Below are positions 1 through 5,909 of a stretch of 5,909 bases of DNA, piece by piece. A program made the translations under genes and the position numbers. Within the stretch, counting starts at the first letter, position 1. Each line of letters starts with the position of its first letter. The notes under the pieces were generated by a model. That model made no database searches and was not told where the DNA came from. It was given only the letters and a program-made list of their open reading frames with translations. This DNA comes from DRGV01 sp018903055 [NCBI: bacterium] (GTDB lineage: Bacteria; UBP18; UBA7526): the NCBI GenBank assembly GCA_018903055.1, contig JAHIPW010000093.1, forward strand, positions 1 through 5,909. Reading direction: 5' to 3'.

Positions 1-158
1 CTGGGGGAACATTACTGGGAATCATCAAGGTTTTAAAGAAAGCAGGAATCAAGATCGCAGATGTCATTACTGTCTTTGAAAGGGGAGAGGGGAAGAAAAG
101 AATAGAGAGAGAAACCGGCTTCAAAATAAAGACTCTCTTAAGAGTCAAGGATAGATAG
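1..158 (+). CDS. Phosphoribosyltransferase, purine (Apt/Hpt-like) type, C-terminal fragment
   Basis: Only the last 51 codons are present, read in frame from base 3 to a TAG at 156-158. The fragment opens with GGT, the end of the (S/A)TGGT signature that binds the 5-phosphate of PRPP in type I phosphoribosyltransferases. It continues with the usual helix and strand ([12 protein letters not shown], then [12 protein letters not shown]) and ends [15 protein letters not shown]. The [20 protein letters not shown] pattern resembles adenine or hypoxanthine phosphoribosyltransferases, which join a purine base to PRPP to give the nucleotide in the cytoplasm. Substrate cannot be fixed without the N-terminal part; xanthine or orotate enzymes are alternatives. 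The stop codon lies in a degenerate heptamer run, and a terminator follows 38 bases later. Confidence 0.72.
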
Positions 159-168
159 TCAATAGTTA
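141..168 (+). repeat. Degenerate heptamer run across the phosphoribosyltransferase stop codon
   Basis: Four consecutive 7-base blocks read AGAGTCA, AGGATAG, ATAGTCA, ATAGTTA. Blocks 1, 3 and 4 agree at 5-6 of 7 positions; block 2 is poor. The stop TAG (156-158) lies in block 3. Alone this is weak; it is listed because clearer arrays occupy the other three stop codons in the window. Confidence 0.35.
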
Positions 169-196
169 ACCACAGTAAAAGAGCCACTATGTCATT

Positions 197-224
197 AAAA
201 AAGGCCCGTAAGGGCCCTTTTTTT
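197..224. terminator. Bidirectional intrinsic terminator
   Basis: A GGCCC/GGGCC stem (203-207 with 212-216) closes a GTAA tetraloop. It is preceded by six A (197-202) and followed, after one C, by seven T (218-224). Because the A run becomes a T run on the other strand, the hairpin can end transcripts from both the phosphoribosyltransferase gene (+) and the convergent DUF2148 gene (-). The stem is short but all GC. Confidence 0.85.
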
Positions 225-270
225 ATCCGCGGTTATCTGCGTTTCGATCAGCGGTTATCAGCGTCTATCG
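225..270. repeat. ATCNGCG tandem array (about 10-base unit) overlapping the DUF2148 stop codon
   Basis: Four units begin with ATC and carry GCG three bases later: ATCCGCGGTT (225-234), ATCTGCGTTTCG (235-246), ATCAGCGGTT (247-256) and ATCAGCGTCT (257-266), followed by a further ATCG. On the minus strand the unit is GATAACCGCT, which supplies both the TGA stop of the DUF2148 gene (258-260) and an in-frame TAA straight after it. A related ATCTGTG motif recurs at 3588-3614. Confidence 0.7.
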
Positions 271-788
271 AAGAAAGGATTCTTTCCACTGATGCTTAAA
301 GGAATGCCGAAGGCGATCTTTACTTCCTTTCCCAATAATTTTAAATTGAGAGCAGCAATCCCTGCAGTATACATAATCCGATTATCTATATGAAAATTGG
401 CTGCCAACGAGACTGCGCTTCCTATAGCAATTCCCAGGTCTCCACTATTGAAGGCGCATATCCCGCCTGCCTTTTCCAGTTCCTTACAATTTTTGAAACC
501 ACATAACCCGCAGACCTCTAACCCGATGGGCCTTGCCTTGGTTCCTATTAAGACCAAAAGGGGCACCTTCCTTATATTCTCACTATCCCTTAAGAAGCTC
601 TTTCTTTTTTTCTTTCTTCCGATTCTCTCCATTTCATCTGCTAAGCGCTTCTTATCTTTACCGGTTATAATGACAGTTACAATATTATCCATCCCTTTGG
701 CCTTGGGCGCTGTGCGGGCACTGGCGCACATGAACTCCGCCACCTTCTTTATTACCTCTTTCTCTGCCTTGTTTCCTTTTTCTATCAT
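258..788 (-). CDS. DUF2148 ferredoxin-domain protein (COG4739-like), function unknown
   Basis: This 176-residue cytoplasmic protein matches the DUF2148 / COG4739 family, small proteins with a ferredoxin-like cysteine cluster common in anaerobic bacteria and methanogens. No reaction has been assigned that I know of. Visible hallmarks are an N-terminal MCASARTAPKAKG segment (Cys21) and the cluster CGLCGFKNC (Cys93, Cys96, Cys101) followed by Cys111 in GGICAF, spaced to bind a 4Fe-4S cluster. The C-terminus runs GIPLSISGKNPFFDRR. There is no signal peptide or membrane segment. The ATG at 786-788 is chosen over a TTG nine codons upstream because AGGAG lies 5 bases before it, and because the longer start falls inside a heptamer repeat. 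The gene lies 116 bases behind the PBP1A gene on the same strand, so cotranscription is plausible. Family assignment is confident; iron-sulfur binding is inferred. Confidence 0.85.
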   Translation of the reverse strand: MIEKGNKAEKEVIKKVAEFMCASARTAPKAKGMDNIVTVIITGKDKKRLADEMERIGRKKKRKSFLRDSENIRKVPLLVLIGTKARPIGLEVCGLCGFKNCKELEKAGGICAFNSGDLGIAIGSAVSLAANFHIDNRIMYTAGIAALNLKLLGKEVKIAFGIPLSISGKNPFFDRR

Positions 789-793
789 ATTCT

Positions 794-798
794 CTCCT
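794..798 (-). promoter_or_regulatory. Ribosome binding site that fixes the DUF2148 start
   Basis: On the minus strand AAAGGAGAGAAT leads directly into the ATG at 788-786. The AGGAG core (798-794) has a 5-base spacer. The upstream in-frame TTG (815-813) has no comparable site and lies within repeat DNA. Confidence 0.75.
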
Positions 799-805
799 TT
801 AATCA

Positions 806-840
806 ATGGCTTCAAGCTTCAAGTCGCAAGCCACAAGCTT
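806..840. repeat. Heptamer array CAAGCTT-type, just upstream of the DUF2148 gene
   Basis: Five 7-base blocks read on the plus strand: ATGGCTT, CAAGCTT, CAAGTCG, CAAGCCA, CAAGCTT. Four of the five begin CAAG, and two are identical. The array ends a few bases upstream of the DUF2148 ribosome binding site. Confidence 0.6.
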
Positions 841-864
841 CAAATACCAAAGTTGCCCTCTTTA

Positions 865-903
865 TAGCCAATAGCCTGTAGCCTGTAGCCTGTAGCCTGT
901 AGC
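865..903. repeat. Heptamer array TAGCCTG next to the PBP1A stop codon
   Basis: A degenerate unit TAGCCAA (865-871) is followed by four perfect TAGCCTG units (872-899) and a partial TAGC. The array ends one base from the PBP1A stop codon (TAA on the minus strand, 907-905). No hairpin with a T run lies here, so it is not an intrinsic terminator. Confidence 0.9.
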
Positions 904-904
904 T

Positions 905-3376
905 TTATTCACTATAAGTTTCTTCGCTTATGCTTATTGGCGCTTCACTGACGGTTAATAGTTCTTCTAGGGGTATAAGTTCCAGGTTGAAGGGGCTTTC
1001 CAATTCCTTCTTCTTCTGGGGCTCGATGAGCCTCAGGCCCAGACCCTTCCCAGGAACCCCTTCTGAGCCGTGCAAGTCGCAGTATTCTGTAGGCTCCGTT
1101 CCATCTAAGAAGGCCTCCACCATTACCTGGGGGCACTCCTTGGTTGCTAATAGGCCACTCTCCGGACAGACCCGAGTAAAAGTCAAGCCCTTCTCTGGAA
1201 TCGGGAATTCCCTGATCGGTCTATCTTTAAAGACCGCTCTCATAAAGTCTGTCCATATCGGTCCCGCTACCTGGGAACCGGTCATATCCTTACCCAGGGA
1301 TATTTTCTCATCAAAACCTACCCAGACGCAGGTTACTAAATCAGGAGTGAAGCCGATGAACCAGGCATCGGTGCACTCATCCGTGGTTCCCGTTTTGGCG
1401 GCGCAGGGGTGGCCCACTGCCCGTGCCCTCCAGCCCGTGCCATGTTCCACCACTCCCCGCAAAAGATTGGTCATGACATAGCAGGTGGCGGGCTTTAAGA
1501 CCTCCGCCTCCTTGGGAAAATTCTCCTCTAAGATGTTTCCACTTCGATCCTCTACTTTTAAGATGGATAGAGGCTCAGTCTTTATTCCCTGATTGGGAAA
1601 GACCCCGTAGGCCGAGGCCATCTCTAAGGGAATGACCTCCGAGGTTCCCAAGGCCAAAGAGAGATCCGGGCCAAGATAACTCTCAATGCCCATTCTGTGA
1701 GCACAACTAATTACTTTCTTAACCCCGATCTTTTCCAGTAGTTTTACGGTAACCACATTCCTCGACTGGGCCAGGCCCACCCTTAAGGTAGTGGGTCCGA
1801 TAAACTTCTCATCGTAATTCTTGGGGGTCCACTTCTCACCCCAGTCATCATAGATTACTGGAGCATCGATTATGATATAGGTGGGGGAGTAGCCACTGTC
1901 AATGGCTGCGGTATAGATGAAGGGCTTGAAAGAAGAACCCGGCTGTCTTTTAGCCTGGGTTACCCTGTTGAACTCGCTCTCCTCAAAGTCATATCCTCCC
2001 ACCATGGCCTTAATGTATCCTGTGGAGGGCTCCAGAGCGACAATGGCTCCCTGAACCTTTGGCTTCTGCTCCAGGGCTAATATTATTCCCTCTTTCTCTC
2101 TATCCAGTTCAACGACTCTGACATCTACCTTATCCTTCGGCTTCAGTATAGTAGAGGAATACTTAAAACCCGTCCAGGCAATATTTTTAGCGGGAAGGGT
2201 TCCTTCTAATCCTCCTCCTAGGTCTATTAAGGCAAAGGTGCTGGTGGCCTTCACCACTATCCCAGAATAAACTTCTCCCTCCTCAAGCAGGGCCAGGATA
2301 CGGGATCTCTTCTCCTTGGCAAATAGGGCCAATTCCTCCTCCGTTGCTTTCTCTGGTTTCCTCCAGCCAAAGGTCTTGTCTACATTTCTTAAACCTTCTT
2401 TAAATGATTTTTGAGCAATCTTCTGCATCTCTAAATCTAAAGTGGTATAGACTTTGAGCCCTCCCCGATAAATAGCATGGGTTCCGTATCTTCTCTCCAG
2501 CTGGCGCCTGATATGCTCCACAAAATAGGGAGCCTCATTCTCACCCGCGGTAAGCCTCTTTAATTCCAGGGGCTCCTGGTCTACCTGGGCTGCCTCTTCC
2601 TCTGTGATAAAACCTTCCTTGACCATCCTTCTCAAGGCATGGGCCCTCCTTTCCAGGGCTAACTTCGGATTATTATAGGGGGAATAGTGGAAGGGCGCTC
2701 TGGGAAGGCCGGATAAAAGGGCAGACTCCGCTAAGGTTAATTCCTGGGCGTGTTTTCCAAAGTAGTTGTTGGCTGCGGCCTCTACCCCATAGGCCCCATG
2801 GCCAAAGTATATCTGATTGAAGTATAACTCCAGTATTTCATCTTTGGAGTATCTGTGCTCAATCTGGAGGGCTAAGACCGCCTCCTTTATCTTCCTCCTT
2901 ATGGTCTTCTCTGGAGTAAGAAAGAGAAGCTTGGAAAGCTGCTGGGTGATGGTTGAACCTCCTTCCACAATACTTCTCGCCTTTAGGTTCACCCAGAGAG
3001 CCCTCACAATTCCCGGAAAGTCTATTCCACAGTGTCTATAGAACCTGGAATCCTCAACAGCGATGGTAGCATCCAAGAGGCTCTTGGGAACAGAGGTCAG
3101 GGGAATGAGTATCCTTCTCTCTTCGGCAAACTGGCCGATTAACTGCCCGTTTGTATCATATATCTTAGTAATGATTCCTGGCCGGTACTCCTCAAAGGCA
3201 CGGATGGAGGGCAGGGTGGAAAGGTAAAGGTGGAGAGGTACTATGATCAAGCCTAAAATAATAAGAGAAAATAGGCTCAAGATACTAATGAAAGCGATTT
3301 TATCCCTCTTTGAGCCAGATTTCTTTATCTTCTCCCAGGTTTTCTTTAAATCTTTAAACCCCGTTAGAAATGCCAT
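905..3376 (-). CDS. mrcA: Penicillin-binding protein 1A (class A, bifunctional transglycosylase/transpeptidase)
   Basis: This 823-residue inner-membrane enzyme polymerises lipid II into glycan strands and cross-links the stem peptides outside the membrane. A short basic cytoplasmic tail precedes one membrane anchor (about 27-52). The GT51 domain (about 68-250) shows VEDSRFYRHCG with catalytic Glu108, GGSTITQQL (139-147), RRKIKE with Glu165, and ELYFNQIYFGHGAYG (183-197). An OB/S1-like insert spans about 365-440. The transpeptidase domain has SSFK (nucleophile Ser481, Lys484), SRN (538-540) and KTG (661-663). The tail has the usual Cys-containing pattern CPESG...CP...GTEP...C (Cys737, Cys748, Cys766), then an acidic end. 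All catalytic residues are present and length is normal for the family. The ATG start has AGGAG 4 bases upstream. Its leader contains a possible upstream ORF and hairpin; codons 2-6 repeat the leader motif ATTTCTAACGGGG. Confidence 0.97.
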   Translation of the reverse strand: MAFLTGFKDLKKTWEKIKKSGSKRDKIAFISILSLFSLIILGLIIVPLHLYLSTLPSIRAFEEYRPGIITKIYDTNGQLIGQFAEERRILIPLTSVPKSLLDATIAVEDSRFYRHCGIDFPGIVRALWVNLKARSIVEGGSTITQQLSKLLFLTPEKTIRRKIKEAVLALQIEHRYSKDEILELYFNQIYFGHGAYGVEAAANNYFGKHAQELTLAESALLSGLPRAPFHYSPYNNPKLALERRAHALRRMVKEGFITEEEAAQVDQEPLELKRLTAGENEAPYFVEHIRRQLERRYGTHAIYRGGLKVYTTLDLEMQKIAQKSFKEGLRNVDKTFGWRKPEKATEEELALFAKEKRSRILALLEEGEVYSGIVVKATSTFALIDLGGGLEGTLPAKNIAWTGFKYSSTILKPKDKVDVRVVELDREKEGIILALEQKPKVQGAIVALEPSTGYIKAMVGGYDFEESEFNRVTQAKRQPGSSFKPFIYTAAIDSGYSPTYIIIDAPVIYDDWGEKWTPKNYDEKFIGPTTLRVGLAQSRNVVTVKLLEKIGVKKVISCAHRMGIESYLGPDLSLALGTSEVIPLEMASAYGVFPNQGIKTEPLSILKVEDRSGNILEENFPKEAEVLKPATCYVMTNLLRGVVEHGTGWRARAVGHPCAAKTGTTDECTDAWFIGFTPDLVTCVWVGFDEKISLGKDMTGSQVAGPIWTDFMRAVFKDRPIREFPIPEKGLTFTRVCPESGLLATKECPQVMVEAFLDGTEPTEYCDLHGSEGVPGKGLGLRLIEPQKKKELESPFNLELIPLEELLTVSEAPISISEETYSE

Positions 3377-3406
3377 TTATCTCCTTTTTTCAATAATCCT
3401 ACTTTC

Positions 3407-3453
3407 CCCCTGTTAGAAAATATTCAGCTTTGCCCTGAAGATTTCTAACGGGG
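3407..3453. repeat. Imperfect inverted repeat (hairpin A) in the PBP1A leader
   Basis: Left arm 3407-3427 pairs with right arm 3435-3453 around a 7-base loop. About 18 pairs form, with two single-base bulges and one mismatch: CCCC(T)GTTAGAAA against TTTCTAACGGGG, then TTCAG against CTGAA. No T run follows on either strand, so it is not a classical terminator. The outer arm motif ATTTCTAACGGGG (3441-3453) appears a third time, inverted, at 3359-3371 inside the PBP1A coding start. Confidence 0.75.
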
Positions 3454-3460
3454 TAAACAT
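3413..3460 (-). CDS. Possible leader peptide upstream of PBP1A (15 codons)
   Basis: On the minus strand an ATG (3460-3458) is preceded by AGGAG (3470-3466) with a 5-base spacer. It opens a reading frame MFTPLEIFRAKLNIF ending in TAA (3415-3413). The stop is 36 bases before the PBP1A ATG, and the start lies about 20 bases after the predicted transcription start, so the frame would be on the PBP1A mRNA. I recognise no homologue. A frame this short can arise by chance; the strong ribosome binding site and its overlap with hairpin A are the reasons to list it. Its codons 3-7 contain the segment that can pair with PBP1A codons 2-6, so its translation could influence PBP1A initiation. Confidence 0.4.
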   Translation of the reverse strand: MFTPLEIFRAKLNIF

Positions 3461-3486
3461 TCCTACTCCTATTCAGGTAATTTTAA

Positions 3487-3515
3487 AGTATATCAAAATT
3501 AAGTCAAAAAGTCAA
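3487..3515 (-). promoter_or_regulatory. Predicted sigma70-type promoter of the PBP1A gene
   Basis: On the minus strand TTGACT (3515-3510) and TATACT (3492-3487) are separated by exactly 17 bases, each one mismatch from consensus. Transcription would start near 3480, giving a leader of about 100 bases that carries hairpin A and the small ORF. A second TTGACT at 3506-3501 could pair with a TAAAAT 16 bases further on. Confidence 0.65.
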
Positions 3516-3525
3516 AAAATTTTAA

Positions 3526-3557
3526 AGAGGTCTCTGAAACTTTTTTCAGAGACCTCT
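3526..3557. repeat. Perfect 14-bp palindromic hairpin (hairpin B) between divergent promoters
   Basis: AGAGGTCTCTGAAA (3526-3539) and its exact reverse complement (3544-3557) flank a CTTT loop. It has no following T run on the plus strand and lies upstream of both predicted promoters, so it is unlikely to be a terminator for either gene. It resembles hairpin C closely. Confidence 0.85.
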
Positions 3558-3587
3558 GATTACACCGATTACCTCAGCAATAAAAAA

Positions 3588-3614
3588 ATCTGTGCAATCT
3601 GTGTTTTATCTGTG
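3588..3614. repeat. ATCTGTG repeats in the divergent intergenic region
   Basis: ATCTGTG occurs at 3588-3594, 3597-3603 and 3608-3614, spaced 9 and 11 bases. The first two copies form the 9-base direct repeat AATCTGTGY. The motif resembles ATCTGCG in the 225-270 array. The run lies between hairpins B and C. Confidence 0.6.
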
Positions 3615-3620
3615 AAATCA

Positions 3621-3647
3621 GAGATTTCTGACTTTTTCAGAAATCTC
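3621..3647. repeat. Perfect 11-bp palindromic hairpin (hairpin C), paralogue of hairpin B
   Basis: GAGATTTCTGA (3621-3631) and TCAGAAATCTC (3637-3647) flank a CTTTT loop. Against hairpin B the left arm differs at two positions (G to A, C to T), and the right arm carries the matching complementary changes, so the stem is kept. It ends 13 bases before the predicted tyrS -35 box. Confidence 0.85.
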
Positions 3648-3660
3648 CTAAAAATTTCCT

Positions 3661-3689
3661 TTGCTTTTAGAAAGAAATTATGCTAAACT
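3661..3689 (+). promoter_or_regulatory. Predicted extended -10 promoter of tyrS
   Basis: TTGCTT (3661-3666) and TAAACT (3684-3689) are 17 bases apart, with TG at 3681-3682 giving an extended -10 (TGCTAAACT). The start site would fall near 3696, leaving a leader of about 15 bases that has room only for the ribosome binding site GAGGTG (3700-3705). A T-box riboswitch, common before tyrS in Firmicutes, is therefore absent from this transcript. Confidence 0.6.
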
Positions 3690-3710
3690 AAAAATTTGTG
3701 AGGTGTATTA

Positions 3711-4895
3711 ATGAAGGATTCAGAAGCAATAAGAAAGGGAACGGTCGAGATACTAACTGAGGATGAACTAAAAGATTGCCTGAAAAGGAAGAGACCCATG
3801 AGGGTAAAGTTCGGGGCAGATCCTACCGTTCCTGATATCCATCTGGGCCATACTGTCGTTCTGCAGAAGTTAAAACAATTCCAGGCCCTGGGGCATAAGA
3901 TTATCTTTGTTATCGGGGACTTTACGGCAAGGATTGGCGACCCCTCGGGAAGAATGGAGACCAGAAAGCCCTTAAGCAGAAAAGAGGTCTTAAGGAATGC
4001 CCGGACCTATCAGGACCAGATATTTAAGATCCTGGATAGGAAGAAGACCAGAGTAGTCTTTAACAGCGCCTGGCTTGATAAATTGATCTCCCGGGATATA
4101 TTCAACTTAGCCTCGAAGTATACTGTGGCTCGAATGTTGGAAAGGGACGATTTTTCTCTGAGGTATAAGAAAGAGCACCCCATTTCCATTCATGAATTCC
4201 TCTATCCCTTAATTCAGGGATACGATTCCATTGTCTTAAAGGCTGATGTTGAGATAGGGGGGACAGATCAGAAGTTCAATATGCTGGTTGGTAGAGCATT
4301 ACAGAAAGAGTATGGCCAGAAGCCCCAGGTGGTGATTACTATGCCCCTCTTAGAAGGAACAGATGGAATTAGAAAGATGAGCAAGACCTATGGCAACTAT
4401 ATCGGGATAAGCGAACCACCTAAGGAGATATTCGGCAAATTAATGTCTGTCTCTGATGAGTTATGCTTGAGATACTGGGAATTATTGACCGATATCTCTC
4501 CTTCAGAGTTAGCAAAGATGAAGAGGGATCTGAAGAGTGGAAGGCTACATCCCAAGGAAGTAAAGAAGAATCTGGCGCTAAAAGTAGTGGAAATGTATCA
4601 TAGCAAGAAGGCCGCTAAAGAAGCAGCAGAAGAATTTGAAGAGGTTTTCAAAAAAAAGAAATTACCTCACAGAATACAAAAGATAAAAATTGTTAAGAAG
4701 AAGATATGGGTCGTTAAACTATTGACTACATCTGGAATGGTAAAGAGCTCTTCTGAGGCCAGACGCTTAATTCAACAGGGAGCAGTTACCTTAGATGGAG
4801 AAAAGATTACCGACCCAGAGAAGGAACTAATCATCAGAGAAGGAGCCATCCTTAAAGTAGGAAAGAGAAGGTTCGCTAGAATAGTAAGAAAGTGA
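3711..4895 (+). CDS. tyrS: Tyrosyl-tRNA synthetase (bacterial, KMSK-type subfamily)
   Basis: This 394-residue cytoplasmic class I synthetase activates tyrosine with ATP and loads it onto tRNA-Tyr. The Rossmann domain carries [15 protein letters not shown], with the HIGH-type motif HLGH at 44-47. The tyrosine-site pattern YPLIQGYD (Tyr165, Gln169, Asp172) follows, then [10 protein letters not shown] (181-190) and the second ATP motif KMSKT (222-226). An alpha-helical tRNA-binding region follows, and an S4 RNA-binding domain occupies about 332-394. The length and the KMSK form (E. coli-type enzymes have KFGKT) place it in the roughly 400-residue TyrRS subfamily. GAGGTG lies 5 bases before the ATG, supporting the start. 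It is divergent from PBP1A, with its own predicted promoter. The stop codon lies in the first unit of an octamer array, and no terminator follows, so readthrough into the deaminase gene is possible. Confidence 0.97.
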
Positions 4896-4951
4896 GAAAG
4901 TGAAAAAGGGAAACGAAGAAACGGGGAATCGGAGAATCGGGGAAAGTGAGA
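4888..4951 (+). repeat. Octamer tandem array starting on the tyrS stop codon
   Basis: Eight contiguous 8-base blocks read GAAAGTGA (twice), AAAAGGGA, AACGAAGA, AACGGGGA, ATCGGAGA, ATCGGGGA, AAGTGAGA. All end in GA, are purine-rich, and neighbours differ by few bases, as expected of tandem copies that drifted. The tyrS TGA (4893-4895) is the end of block 1. Confidence 0.75.
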
Positions 4952-4959
4952 AATACAAT

Positions 4960-4994
4960 AATGAAAAATGAAAAATTAGCAATGCAAAATGAGT
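4960..4994 (+). repeat. Heptamer array AATGAAA-type between tyrS and the deaminase gene
   Basis: Five 7-base blocks read AATGAAA, AATGAAA, AATTAGC, AATGCAA, AATGAGT; all begin AAT. It follows the octamer array by 8 bases but has a different unit and period. The rest of the gap (4995-5076) is AT-rich, with no terminator and no promoter I would call. Confidence 0.65.
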
Positions 4995-5076
4995 ACAGAA
5001 TACTAATCCCATTGGTGATTTTATCGCCATAATCATTATTAAATCACTGTCATCATTCCGAACAACGTGAGGAAAA

Positions 5077-5909
5077 ATGAGTAAGTTATTAATTAAAAAT
5101 ATCAAAGTTATTGCAACTATGGACGATAAAAAGACCAGGATTGAGAACGGCGCCATCTATATCGAAGACAACATCATTAAGGACGTTAGCCCCACCAAGC
5201 AAGTAATTTCCAGGATCCAGCATCCAGGATCCAGCATCCAGACTATCGATGCTTCAGACAAAGTCGTCCTTCCCGGTCTTATCAATACCCACCACCATCT
5301 CTACCAGACTTTGAATAGGAACATCCCTGCGGTTCAGGATGCAAAGCTATTCGACTGGATAAAGATATTATATGAGATATGGAGAGAAATAACTCCAGAA
5401 GGGGTCTATGTCAGCGCCCAGGTGGGAATGGGGGAGTTACTCTTAACTGGTTGCACTACGACTGTTGACCAATTCTACGTTTTCCCTAAAGACAAGCCAA
5501 AGGATTTAATCGATTACGAGATAAAAGCAGCTAAAGAGATAGGAATTAGGTTCCACCCCTGTCGGGGAAGTATGTCCTTGGGGAAATCAGAAGGTGGTCT
5601 TCCCCCGGATGATTTAGTTCAGAGTGAGGAAGAGATATTAAGGGACTCGGAAAGATTGATCAACAAGTATTATGACCCCAAAGAATTTTCTATGCTAAGA
5701 GTTGCCCTTGCTCCCTGTTCTCCCTTCTCAGTAACAAAGGAGCTTCTAAAAGAAACCATTGACTTTGCCCGAAAGAAGAAGGTGAGATGCCATACCCATA
5801 TAGCAGAGACCCTGGATGAAGAAAAATACTGTCTTGAAACCCACAAGATGAGGCCTTTGGTCTATATGGAGAGTCTCGGTTGGCTGGGAGAGGATGTCTG
5901 GTTTGCCCA
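5077..5909 (+). CDS. 8-oxoguanine deaminase-like amidohydrolase (ATZ/TRZ family), 3' end outside window
   Basis: The frame is open from ATG 5077 to the window edge (277 codons). It belongs to the metal-dependent amidohydrolase superfamily and most resembles 8-oxoguanine deaminases, cytoplasmic enzymes that hydrolyse 8-oxoguanine to urate and ammonia. Signatures in order are VVLPGLINTHHHLYQTL (metal ligands His72 and His74), GCTTTVDQFY, RGSMSLGKSEGGLPP (163-177), LAPCSPFSV (211-219), HTHIAETLDEEKYC (His241 ligand, Glu244 catalytic) and GWLGEDVWFA just before the next metal His at the edge. The GSMSLG...GGLPP and APCSPFSV blocks separate it from ordinary guanine deaminase, though hydroxydechloroatrazine-type or other aminohydrolase activity remains possible. 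GAGG lies 4 bases before the ATG. Residues about 46-55 are encoded by a heptamer DNA array, seemingly an insertion in the N-terminal beta domain. It may be cotranscribed with tyrS. Confidence 0.88.
   Translation, partial: MSKLLIKNIKVIATMDDKKTRIENGAIYIEDNIIKDVSPTKQVISRIQHPGSSIQTIDASDKVVLPGLINTHHHLYQTLNRNIPAVQDAKLFDWIKILYEIWREITPEGVYVSAQVGMGELLLTGCTTTVDQFYVFPKDKPKDLIDYEIKAAKEIGIRFHPCRGSMSLGKSEGGLPPDDLVQSEEEILRDSERLINKYYDPKEFSMLRVALAPCSPFSVTKELLKETIDFARKKKVRCHTHIAETLDEEKYCLETHKMRPLVYMESLGWLGEDVWFA
5210..5244 (+). repeat. Heptamer array CCAGSAT inside the deaminase coding sequence
   Basis: Five blocks read CCAGGAT, CCAGCAT, CCAGGAT, CCAGCAT, CCAGACT, so the array is also a 14-base repeat present twice. 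It stays in frame, encoding roughly RIQHPGSSIQ (46-55) between the first beta strands and the IDASDKVVLPG segment. Confidence 0.9.

Follow-up and report, generated by a model that had tools for sequence, protein, structure and literature searches.

Short tandemly repeated repetitive (STRR) sequences of cyanobacteria are characterized by a fixed word, or a few such words, in each genome. In Geobacter metallireducens, dispersed heptamers comprise GGGACCG, with four units at 49 places, and MTYCTGA, with five units at 15 sites (PMC2700814), and the repeats in P6b of the Nostoc trnL(UAA) intron are of Class I (TDNGATT) or Class II (NNTGAGT) (PMC4476775). Heptamers of the GGGAATC type lie mostly between the same genes in two species with their sequence changed, and the cause of heptamer over-representation in bacteria is unexplained (PMC4692102). 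The subject here is a stretch of 5,909 nucleotides, 'the window', which is one whole contig (JAHIPW010000093.1) of the genome of the bacterium DRGV01 sp018903055 (G000; 1.085 Mb in 191 contigs), and the short tandem arrays, mostly with units of 7 or 8 bases, on and near its genes. The window leads to a larger fact: short arrays populate the whole genome, and at fixed sites their words change. Comparison is with five family relatives (G001 to G005), the six family genomes being incomplete (53-93%).

Period, unit number and words in the family

Three samples entered the census: for G000, 46 usable contigs totalling 281 kb, or 26% of its genome; for G003, 40 stretches (562 kb); and for G004, 17 stretches (182 kb). 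Excluded as N were 14 of 60 G000 contigs and 3 of 20 G004 contigs; genes were called with a simple codon-score method of our own that gives rough starts. At a score of at least 40, Tandem Repeats Finder (TRF) returns 219, 322 and 104 arrays in G000, G003 and G004 (the order kept for such triplets), as against 4 to 19 in five shuffles of each, and array density per kb is 2.77, 1.84 and 2.30 in non-coding and 0.20, 0.27 and 0.22 in coding sequence. Perfect runs of period 7 number 64, 91 and 26 and those of period 8 number 19, 29 and 14, with 0 to 2 in shuffles (for G000, 64 versus 1.0 and 19 versus 0), and at periods 4-6 and 9-13 the counts in the three samples are at most 2.5 from the shuffle level. 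Arrays of period 10, which are seldom perfect, make up 24, 22 and 6 non-coding TRF rows. The median number of units is 4.71 for period 7 and 4.38 for period 8, with a peak at 4 to 5 units, and the same segment detector applied to one shuffle of every contig gives one segment for each of the two periods.

The 175 period-7 arrays of the three samples are built of 81 words, 34 of which recur and between them cover 128 of the arrays. Pairs of arrays with the same word number 44, 121 and 14, versus 3.6, 9.1 and 1.3 with permuted letters, and certain words, such as ATCCAGN and AACCGTN, have a variable column. In terms of existing classes, the arrays belong with the long simple sequence repeats that show heptamer excess (units of 5-11 nt, mostly non-coding), period 7 being the commonest, and, with so many words, are neither fixed-word STRR sequences nor a single-word heptamer family.

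Elsewhere, 75 named loci of other groups (719 kb around homologues of the window's penicillin-binding protein gene, PBP1A) contain 126 arrays, two of them with period 7 and one with period 8, so the pattern is not general there. Among 139 genomes outside the family, the pattern AACCGTNAACCGTNAACCG is present in three (13 matches, some overlapping; reversed control, one match), ATCCAGNATCCAGNATCCAG in one (one match; reversed control, three matches in one genome) and CTACAGGCTACAGGCTAC in none (reversed control, one), and the 10-base pattern ATCTGCGTNNATCTGCG is present in nine (47 matches; reversed control, none). Two words span wide distances and two hardly do. The tandem 10-base word ATCTGCGTNN, common to nine of the 139 unrelated genomes including G045 and G092, counts as a separate repeat that crosses families.

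Words at the same site in sister genes

Of 297 segments of period 7 or 8, 57 are at least 60 nt within a called gene (44 of 175 for period 7, 13 of 122 for period 8). The hosts, from NCBIfam, are 8-oxoguanine deaminase, Lnt, LpxK, RsmE, KdsB, AhcY and RnfC, with the addition of a WaaA-like transferase (under the curated cut-off) and of MnmA, in which the array is of period 10. These in-gene arrays keep the reading frame open, and the named hosts are mostly housekeeping enzymes. In phase-variable contingency repeats, a change in copy number turns surface or modification genes on or off. The limited, recurring set of words is drawn on here also, with another word of the set at several orthologous sites in sister genomes.

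The deaminase of the window (deaminase A) illustrates this, with, in the same loop, CACATCY in G005, AACCGTN in G003 and G004, ACTCCGA in G002 and ATCCAGG in G000, i.e. four words and an array in all five genomes with the gene (it was not found in G001). In its paralogue, deaminase B, all four genomes have an array and the words are again four: ATCCAGG in G002, ACTCCGA in G003, TGCAAAA in G004 and AAGTCCA in G005. By eye, the corresponding stretches of deaminase homologues outside the family have no such array. LpxK has AATTCAA in G000, AATTCCC in G003, GTCGCAG in G001 and G002, GTCCAAA in G005 and GGGTTAA in G004. The G004 bin has two LpxK matches with different array words (L304 and L306, the latter partial and with a word like that of G003), which may represent a second copy or a foreign contig. 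RsmE has ATCCAGG in G000, ATCCCGG/ATCCAGG in G002, CACATCN in G001 and G004, an AACCGTN-like word in G005 and, in G003, an ATCACCG-like array interrupted by a palindromic insert. Lnt has TTTACGG (the complement of CCGTAAA) in G003, G004 and, with an insert, G002, and ACATCAC in G000, with CATCCCA in the Lnt paralogue of G004 and no array in that of G002. ATCCAGG is thus at unrelated sites, in deaminase A, RsmE and KdsB of G000 and in deaminase B of G002.

LpxK, RsmE and Lnt are not an unbiased sample since they were followed through the family because a first comparison had shown a difference. An unselected set is provided by the seven in-gene G000 arrays of period 7 or 14 with an orthologous stretch of at least 75% identity in G003 or G004: another word is present in three (deaminase, LpxK and RsmE), the same word in three (AhcY, KdsB and WaaA-like), and at one site (L162:1879) the sister has no array. 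For the RnfC array of G003 the sole comparison is a 37% match in G004, which is without an array. On sequence alignment, the array stretch of the deaminase is about 10 residues longer than in 7ww2, and that of AhcY aligns to 7o5l with no gap; a single-sequence AlphaFold model of the deaminase has a mean predicted local distance difference test score (pLDDT) of 34 and is uninformative for loop placement.

A different type of dispersed element in the family, GC-rich and palindromic with the core GGCGAGACCTCGCC, can also sit in frame within genes, and resembles the in-frame palindromic elements of Rickettsia. With at most one mismatch it has 6, 3 and 1 matches in the G000, G003 and G004 samples (expected, fewer than 0.2 in each), of which 3, 2 and 0 are in called genes. 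It is present even inside a heptamer array, that in RsmE of G003 (L310), and further sites are in a G000 stretch matched to L214:5549 and in a G004 stretch.

Likeness of words was compared in same-site pairs from different genomes with the close pair G003/G004 left out, together with the arrays broken by an insert (RsmE of G003 and Lnt of G002), the Lnt paralogue of G002 (no array), Lnt of G005 (part uncovered), the partial LpxK L306 of G004, the period-10 site in MnmA and a second in-gene array of the G003 deaminase B gene (L134:2665). Out of 7 positions, the matches are 3.95 for the same site (n=43), 3.83 for different sites in different genomes (n=280), 3.94 for different sites within a genome (n=70) and 3.62 for permuted letters. 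Matches at 6 or 7 of the 7 positions are found in 6 of 43, 22 of 280 and 9 of 70 pairs respectively and in 1.6% with permutation, recurrence of words at unrelated sites being about five times the permuted level. That likeness at a site is about that between sites, and that words recur, favours rapid turnover from a common set.

Intergenic comparison is at the level of 117 orthologous gaps (three genome pairs summed, with some gaps counted more than once): in 36 both members of the pair have an array, in 51 a single member has one, and in 30 neither does. Where both have arrays, unit identity is 0.68, as against 0.59 for random partners, and is at least 0.9 in 6 of the 36. Association of array presence has an odds ratio of 4.5 (p=0.02) for the close pair G003-G004, 5.6 (p=0.18) for G000-G004 and 0.8 (p=0.74) for G000-G003. 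This table replaced a first control for array conservation because its control points can land repeatedly in one gap; it had given a mixed result, with an array in 35/71, 14/27, 32/49, 38/59, 13/19 and 38/52 sister intervals and at 40/104, 1/50, 23/45, 5/61, 31/69 and 14/229 control points.

Gene ends and the window

In gaps between genes on the same strand, 134 of 364 arrays are no more than 15 bp past the upstream stop, versus a mean of 64.9 and a maximum of 85 in 2000 simulations with random placement of the arrays within the same gaps; near downstream starts, 58 arrays versus 65.1 expected is the level of chance. The other 230 of the 364 are not within 15 bp of the stop. Of 110 near-stop arrays, 40 include all or some of the stop codon, and the link may therefore be due in part to arrays that are tolerated at a gene end and supply the stop. 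In-gene arrays whose period is not a multiple of three (or is 21 or 24) number 12 within 90 nt of the gene start, 14 within 60 nt of the gene end and 93 deeper, so misplaced starts do not abolish the asymmetry between stops and starts. Neighbouring genes in the G000 sample are nearly all co-directional, 131 of 138 gaps of at least 20 bp being tandem.

A 'backstop' function for stop codons in the arrays was considered and rejected, a stop trinucleotide being present in 244 of 299 same-strand gap arrays in the sense and 213 of 299 in the antisense direction; for near-stop arrays the figures are 90 and 72 of 110, a weak sense excess. Strand bias of the arrays was likewise discarded, since arrays resemble the remaining intergenic DNA in both purine fraction (0.547 versus 0.561) and GC skew (0.109 versus 0.134).

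The features of the window are as follows.

3..158, plus strand: 3' end of a phosphoribosyltransferase-like frame (name from the preliminary description, without a Pfam match); its stop is without an array
197..220, no strand: GC hairpin with a T-run (ggcccgtaagggccc), terminator-like by eye, between two convergent genes
223..269, minus strand: period-10 array, sense words ACGCTGATAA / ACGCAGATAA, that includes the DUF2148 stop (TRF)
258..815, minus strand: DUF2148 ferredoxin-domain gene, stop TGA at 258-260
809..843, minus strand: imperfect period-7 array of GCTTCAA (sense TTGAAGC), 75% match, upstream of the DUF2148 start (TRF)
872..903, minus strand: perfect period-7 array of 4.6 units of TAGCCTG (sense CTACAGG), 100% match (TRF)
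905..3376, minus strand: class A penicillin-binding protein (PBP1A) with S1 domain
3501..3518, no strand: weak 2.2-unit period-8 repeat between the divergent PBP1A and tyrS starts (TRF)
3711..4895, plus strand: tyrosyl-tRNA synthetase (tyrS), stop TGA at 4893-4895
4878..4953, plus strand: array of period 8/16 spanning the tyrS stop (two TRF rows)
4960..4992, plus strand: imperfect period-7 array of AATGAAA/AATGCAA type, 69% match (TRF)
5077..5907, plus strand: 8-oxoguanine deaminase-like amidohydrolase, truncated by the contig end
5209..5244, plus strand: period-7 array of ATCCAGG/ATCCAGC, about 5 units, within the deaminase coding sequence (TRF)

At a score of at least 35 and periods of 6-24, TRF gives eight rows in the window; 200 dinucleotide shuffles average 0.47 rows and reach at most 3 (0.12 and 1 with only periods 7, 8, 10, 14 and 16 counted). 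With this support, six of the seven arrays named in a preliminary description made from the letters alone stand. The seventh, at 141-168, has 11 of 21 self-matches at period 7, gives nothing with TRF at a score of 30, and corresponds in sister loci to conserved coding sequence at the end of the phosphoribosyltransferase-like frame. The further claim, of an array at all four stops, is accurate for DUF2148 and tyrS, with the stop within the array, and for PBP1A, where the array is one base past the stop (905-907), and fails for the phosphoribosyltransferase. Likewise, three of the six arrays that stand are at gene 3' ends, where most had been placed, and the others are not: 809-843 is on the start side of DUF2148 and 5209-5244 is inside an open frame.

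What the same description had proposed on a broader level, a near-fixed period of 7 or 8 with many different units, is seen in the samples of all three genomes, as is its expected enrichment at stops. That stops are the place around which the process is organized is not supported, with 230 of the 364 gap arrays lying elsewhere and 57 of the 297 segments inside genes; the enrichment just past stops is real, and the framing in terms of stop codons is a partial truth that holds as enrichment, not as a rule. It was also right that spread of one element is not involved; the recurrence of 34 of the 81 words does, however, indicate spread of a limited set. Comparison of units at sister sites, which it had suggested, gives another word at some in-gene sites and the same word at others.

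Several of the features have counterparts in sister loci. Hairpins resembling that at 197..220 are at the matching place, related 10-base words, e.g. ACGCGAATAA and ACACGGATAA, are at the place of the 223..269 array, and the comparison makes the ATG at 786-788 on the minus strand the likely true start of DUF2148. In the tyrS array the word, by eye, shifts in register along the array (AGAAAGTG, AAACGGGG, AATCGGAG, AAAGTGAG). The TRF row for the deaminase array, 5209-5241, is of period 7, with a 100% match when scored as period 14, and the full-length sister protein of the deaminase (locus L033) is above the cut-off for NCBIfam PRK08203. The weak repeat at 3501-3518 was missing from the preliminary list. 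In PBP1A (905-3376), whose best-segment matches are 90-92% to CSMAG_2758, HyVt-354 and CSMAG_2709, 87% to CSMAG_2684 and 82% to UBP18_UBA7526, an S1 RNA-binding-type domain is between the transglycosylase and the transpeptidase. The window has no Rfam match at the gathering threshold.

Origin of the arrays and related systems

Two types of gene pertinent to origin were sought in the six incomplete family genomes: the MutS_V domain was found in none (controls, 11 of 14), nor was the reverse transcriptase domain PF00078 (controls, 3 of 14). Two candidates were rejected in this context, a telomerase-like reverse transcriptase as writer, with PF00078 not found, and simple escape from mismatch repair, with MutS_V not found, yet periods 4-6 not raised.

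The likeliest reading, a tentative one, is that the arrays are a fast-turning genome-wide population with period 7 or 8 and about 4.5 units (~33 bp), copied between sites and overwritten where tolerated. A new array would arise when part of one already present is copied to a fresh site or on top of an older array, perhaps through microhomology-driven template switching during replication or repair, and would then decay by point mutation before being overwritten again. Loss of MutS may permit such copying. Survival would be expected where sequence is free: in gaps, just past stops (the stop itself may then come from the array), and, if frame is kept, in enzyme loops that tolerate change. A more pointed version, itself rather unlikely, has a family process that writes 4-5 copies of a 7- or 8-base word over fixed sites, loops of housekeeping enzymes among them. 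The words would belong to a common lexicon, part of which (AACCGTN, ATCTGCGTNN) is in use in unrelated bacteria too, and sequence would be swapped in cassette-like fashion with period and approximate length kept.

Several points weigh against copying between sites. Neither an intermediate of copying nor a donor tract or a signature in the flanks was identified, the lack of a rise at periods 5, 6 and 9 is not accounted for by MutS loss alone, and with incomplete genomes the absence of MutS is not proven. The words at the AhcY, WaaA-like and KdsB sites are retained across sisters. Neighbouring period-7 units often differ (142 of 512 are identical and 244 are one base apart), so most arrays are not fresh. 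Near-identical words are moderately commoner at the same site (14% versus 8%, with no significance test), some same-site words are one or two changes apart, as with ATCCAGG/ATCCCGG in RsmE, and the 10-base words in MnmA and after DUF2148 are likewise near neighbours, all of which fits inheritance with concerted drift. Given these near neighbours, units that differ by a base and columns shared at twice the level of chance, part of the change may be such drift; the permuted-letter nulls, moreover, ignore word preference or selection.

Slippage with drift, and selected binding arrays, are serious rivals to copying between sites. With local replication slippage, heptamers would arise de novo from chance duplication, expand, contract and homogenize, and shared words would mirror preferences of the polymerase. 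The hypothesis linking heptamers to the polymerase reportedly comes from Mrazek and colleagues. As relayed in PMC4692102 and PMC4679880, it dates from 2007 and derives the 7-nt preference from the stretch of DNA that the polymerase holds. Heptamer excess is reported for many bacteria (PMC4692102, PMC4679880), and slippage also accords with neighbouring units being mostly one base apart with differences stacked in one column (0.238 versus 0.118 by chance, period 7), with mosaicism of the array at the tyrS stop and of that in RsmE of G002, and with the failure to find a MutS domain in the six incomplete genomes. Nevertheless it is unlikely to be the main source, since lengths peak at 4-5 units with no fall-off, recurrence of words is some ten times that with permuted letters, sharing a site makes words hardly more similar on average, and there is no excess at periods 5, 6 and 9. 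Selected binding elements, in which a 6-base core would be clustered at a pitch of 7 or 8 bases that a nucleoid, RNA-binding or termination factor reads more for spacing than for sequence (word turnover reflecting relaxed sequence needs), would account for the fixed pitch and unit number, the variable column in ATCCAGN and AACCGTN, and enrichment past stop codons. Four-unit Geobacter heptamers are annotated as putative regulatory and the five-unit ones as predicted regulator sites (PMC2700814), and Bacillus repeats of constant size and variable sequence are read as possibly protein-binding (PMC8161180). However, arrays inside enzymes merely add or form a short stretch of protein, there is no clear conservation, from genus to genus, of whether an orthologous gap has an array (only G003-G004 is significant), and purine content is as in other intergenic DNA, which together make this rather improbable.

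Writing of the arrays by an enzyme or mobile system of their own, e.g. a telomerase-like reverse transcriptase or an integrase inserting ~33 bp, would suit the near-constant length and the different words at fixed sites. It is very unlikely given the PF00078 result in the six incomplete genomes, and no candidate enzyme was found. An artefact of assembly or binning comes to mind with G000 being a fragmented metagenome bin of 191 contigs and is scarcely credible, as the same pattern is in other family assemblies, some with contigs of more than 40 kb, and the in-gene arrays have open frames and conserved flanks.

Of wider interest is that this small genome family has a strong heptamer effect, with sites open to comparison from species to species and word exchange readable in conserved proteins. 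Cross-species sites with clear reading frames make models of slippage, copying and selection directly testable, and suggest a source of new protein sequence beyond point mutation and ordinary insertion. Heptamer excess, a four-unit preference (Xanthomonas), dispersed Geobacter heptamers and class replacement in Nostoc trnL are already in print; word exchange at many sites inside conserved genes was not found described in the literature searched, most subscription papers being outside its scope.

Among known systems, the Bacillus repeats of 52 and 20-21 nt share constancy of unit size with variable sequence, their units being much longer than the arrays here (PMC8161180). Borg tandem repeats are also pervasive, fast-turning, genic as well as intergenic, and of unlike units, but in genes their units are perfect with a length divisible by three, whereas here the unit is 7, imperfect and on a bacterial chromosome (PMC9879509). 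The TAACTGA repeats of marine Beggiatoaceae also form heptamer arrays, with two to six units each, which lie for the most part between genes and are known from several phyla (PMC4679880); they are, however, a single word mostly just upstream of starts, in contrast to many words enriched past stops. The GGGAATC-type quadruplex heptamers of Xanthomonas and Nostoc share period 7, a four-unit preference and proximity to genes (PMC4692102), though they are one G-rich word family, and most words here, by eye, are without G-runs. The Geobacter metallireducens elements are four to five tandem heptamers that are dispersed, with the GGGACCG family both genic and intergenic (PMC2700814). The family arrays have the same number of units and are similarly dispersed in and between genes, the difference being between fixed-word families matched by BLAST and 81 period-7 words with different ones at some orthologous sites. 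A parallel for replacement is Nostoc P6b, where one seven-base word is repeatedly replaced by another at a fixed site out of step with phylogeny (PMC4476775). A different heptamer word at an orthologous site is seen here too, in both deaminases, LpxK, RsmE and Lnt, and is not seen in AhcY, the WaaA-like transferase and KdsB. P6b is one RNA stem with paired strands in one gene and has two words; in the family of the window the sites are several, the words are many, and protein-coding sequence is also involved.

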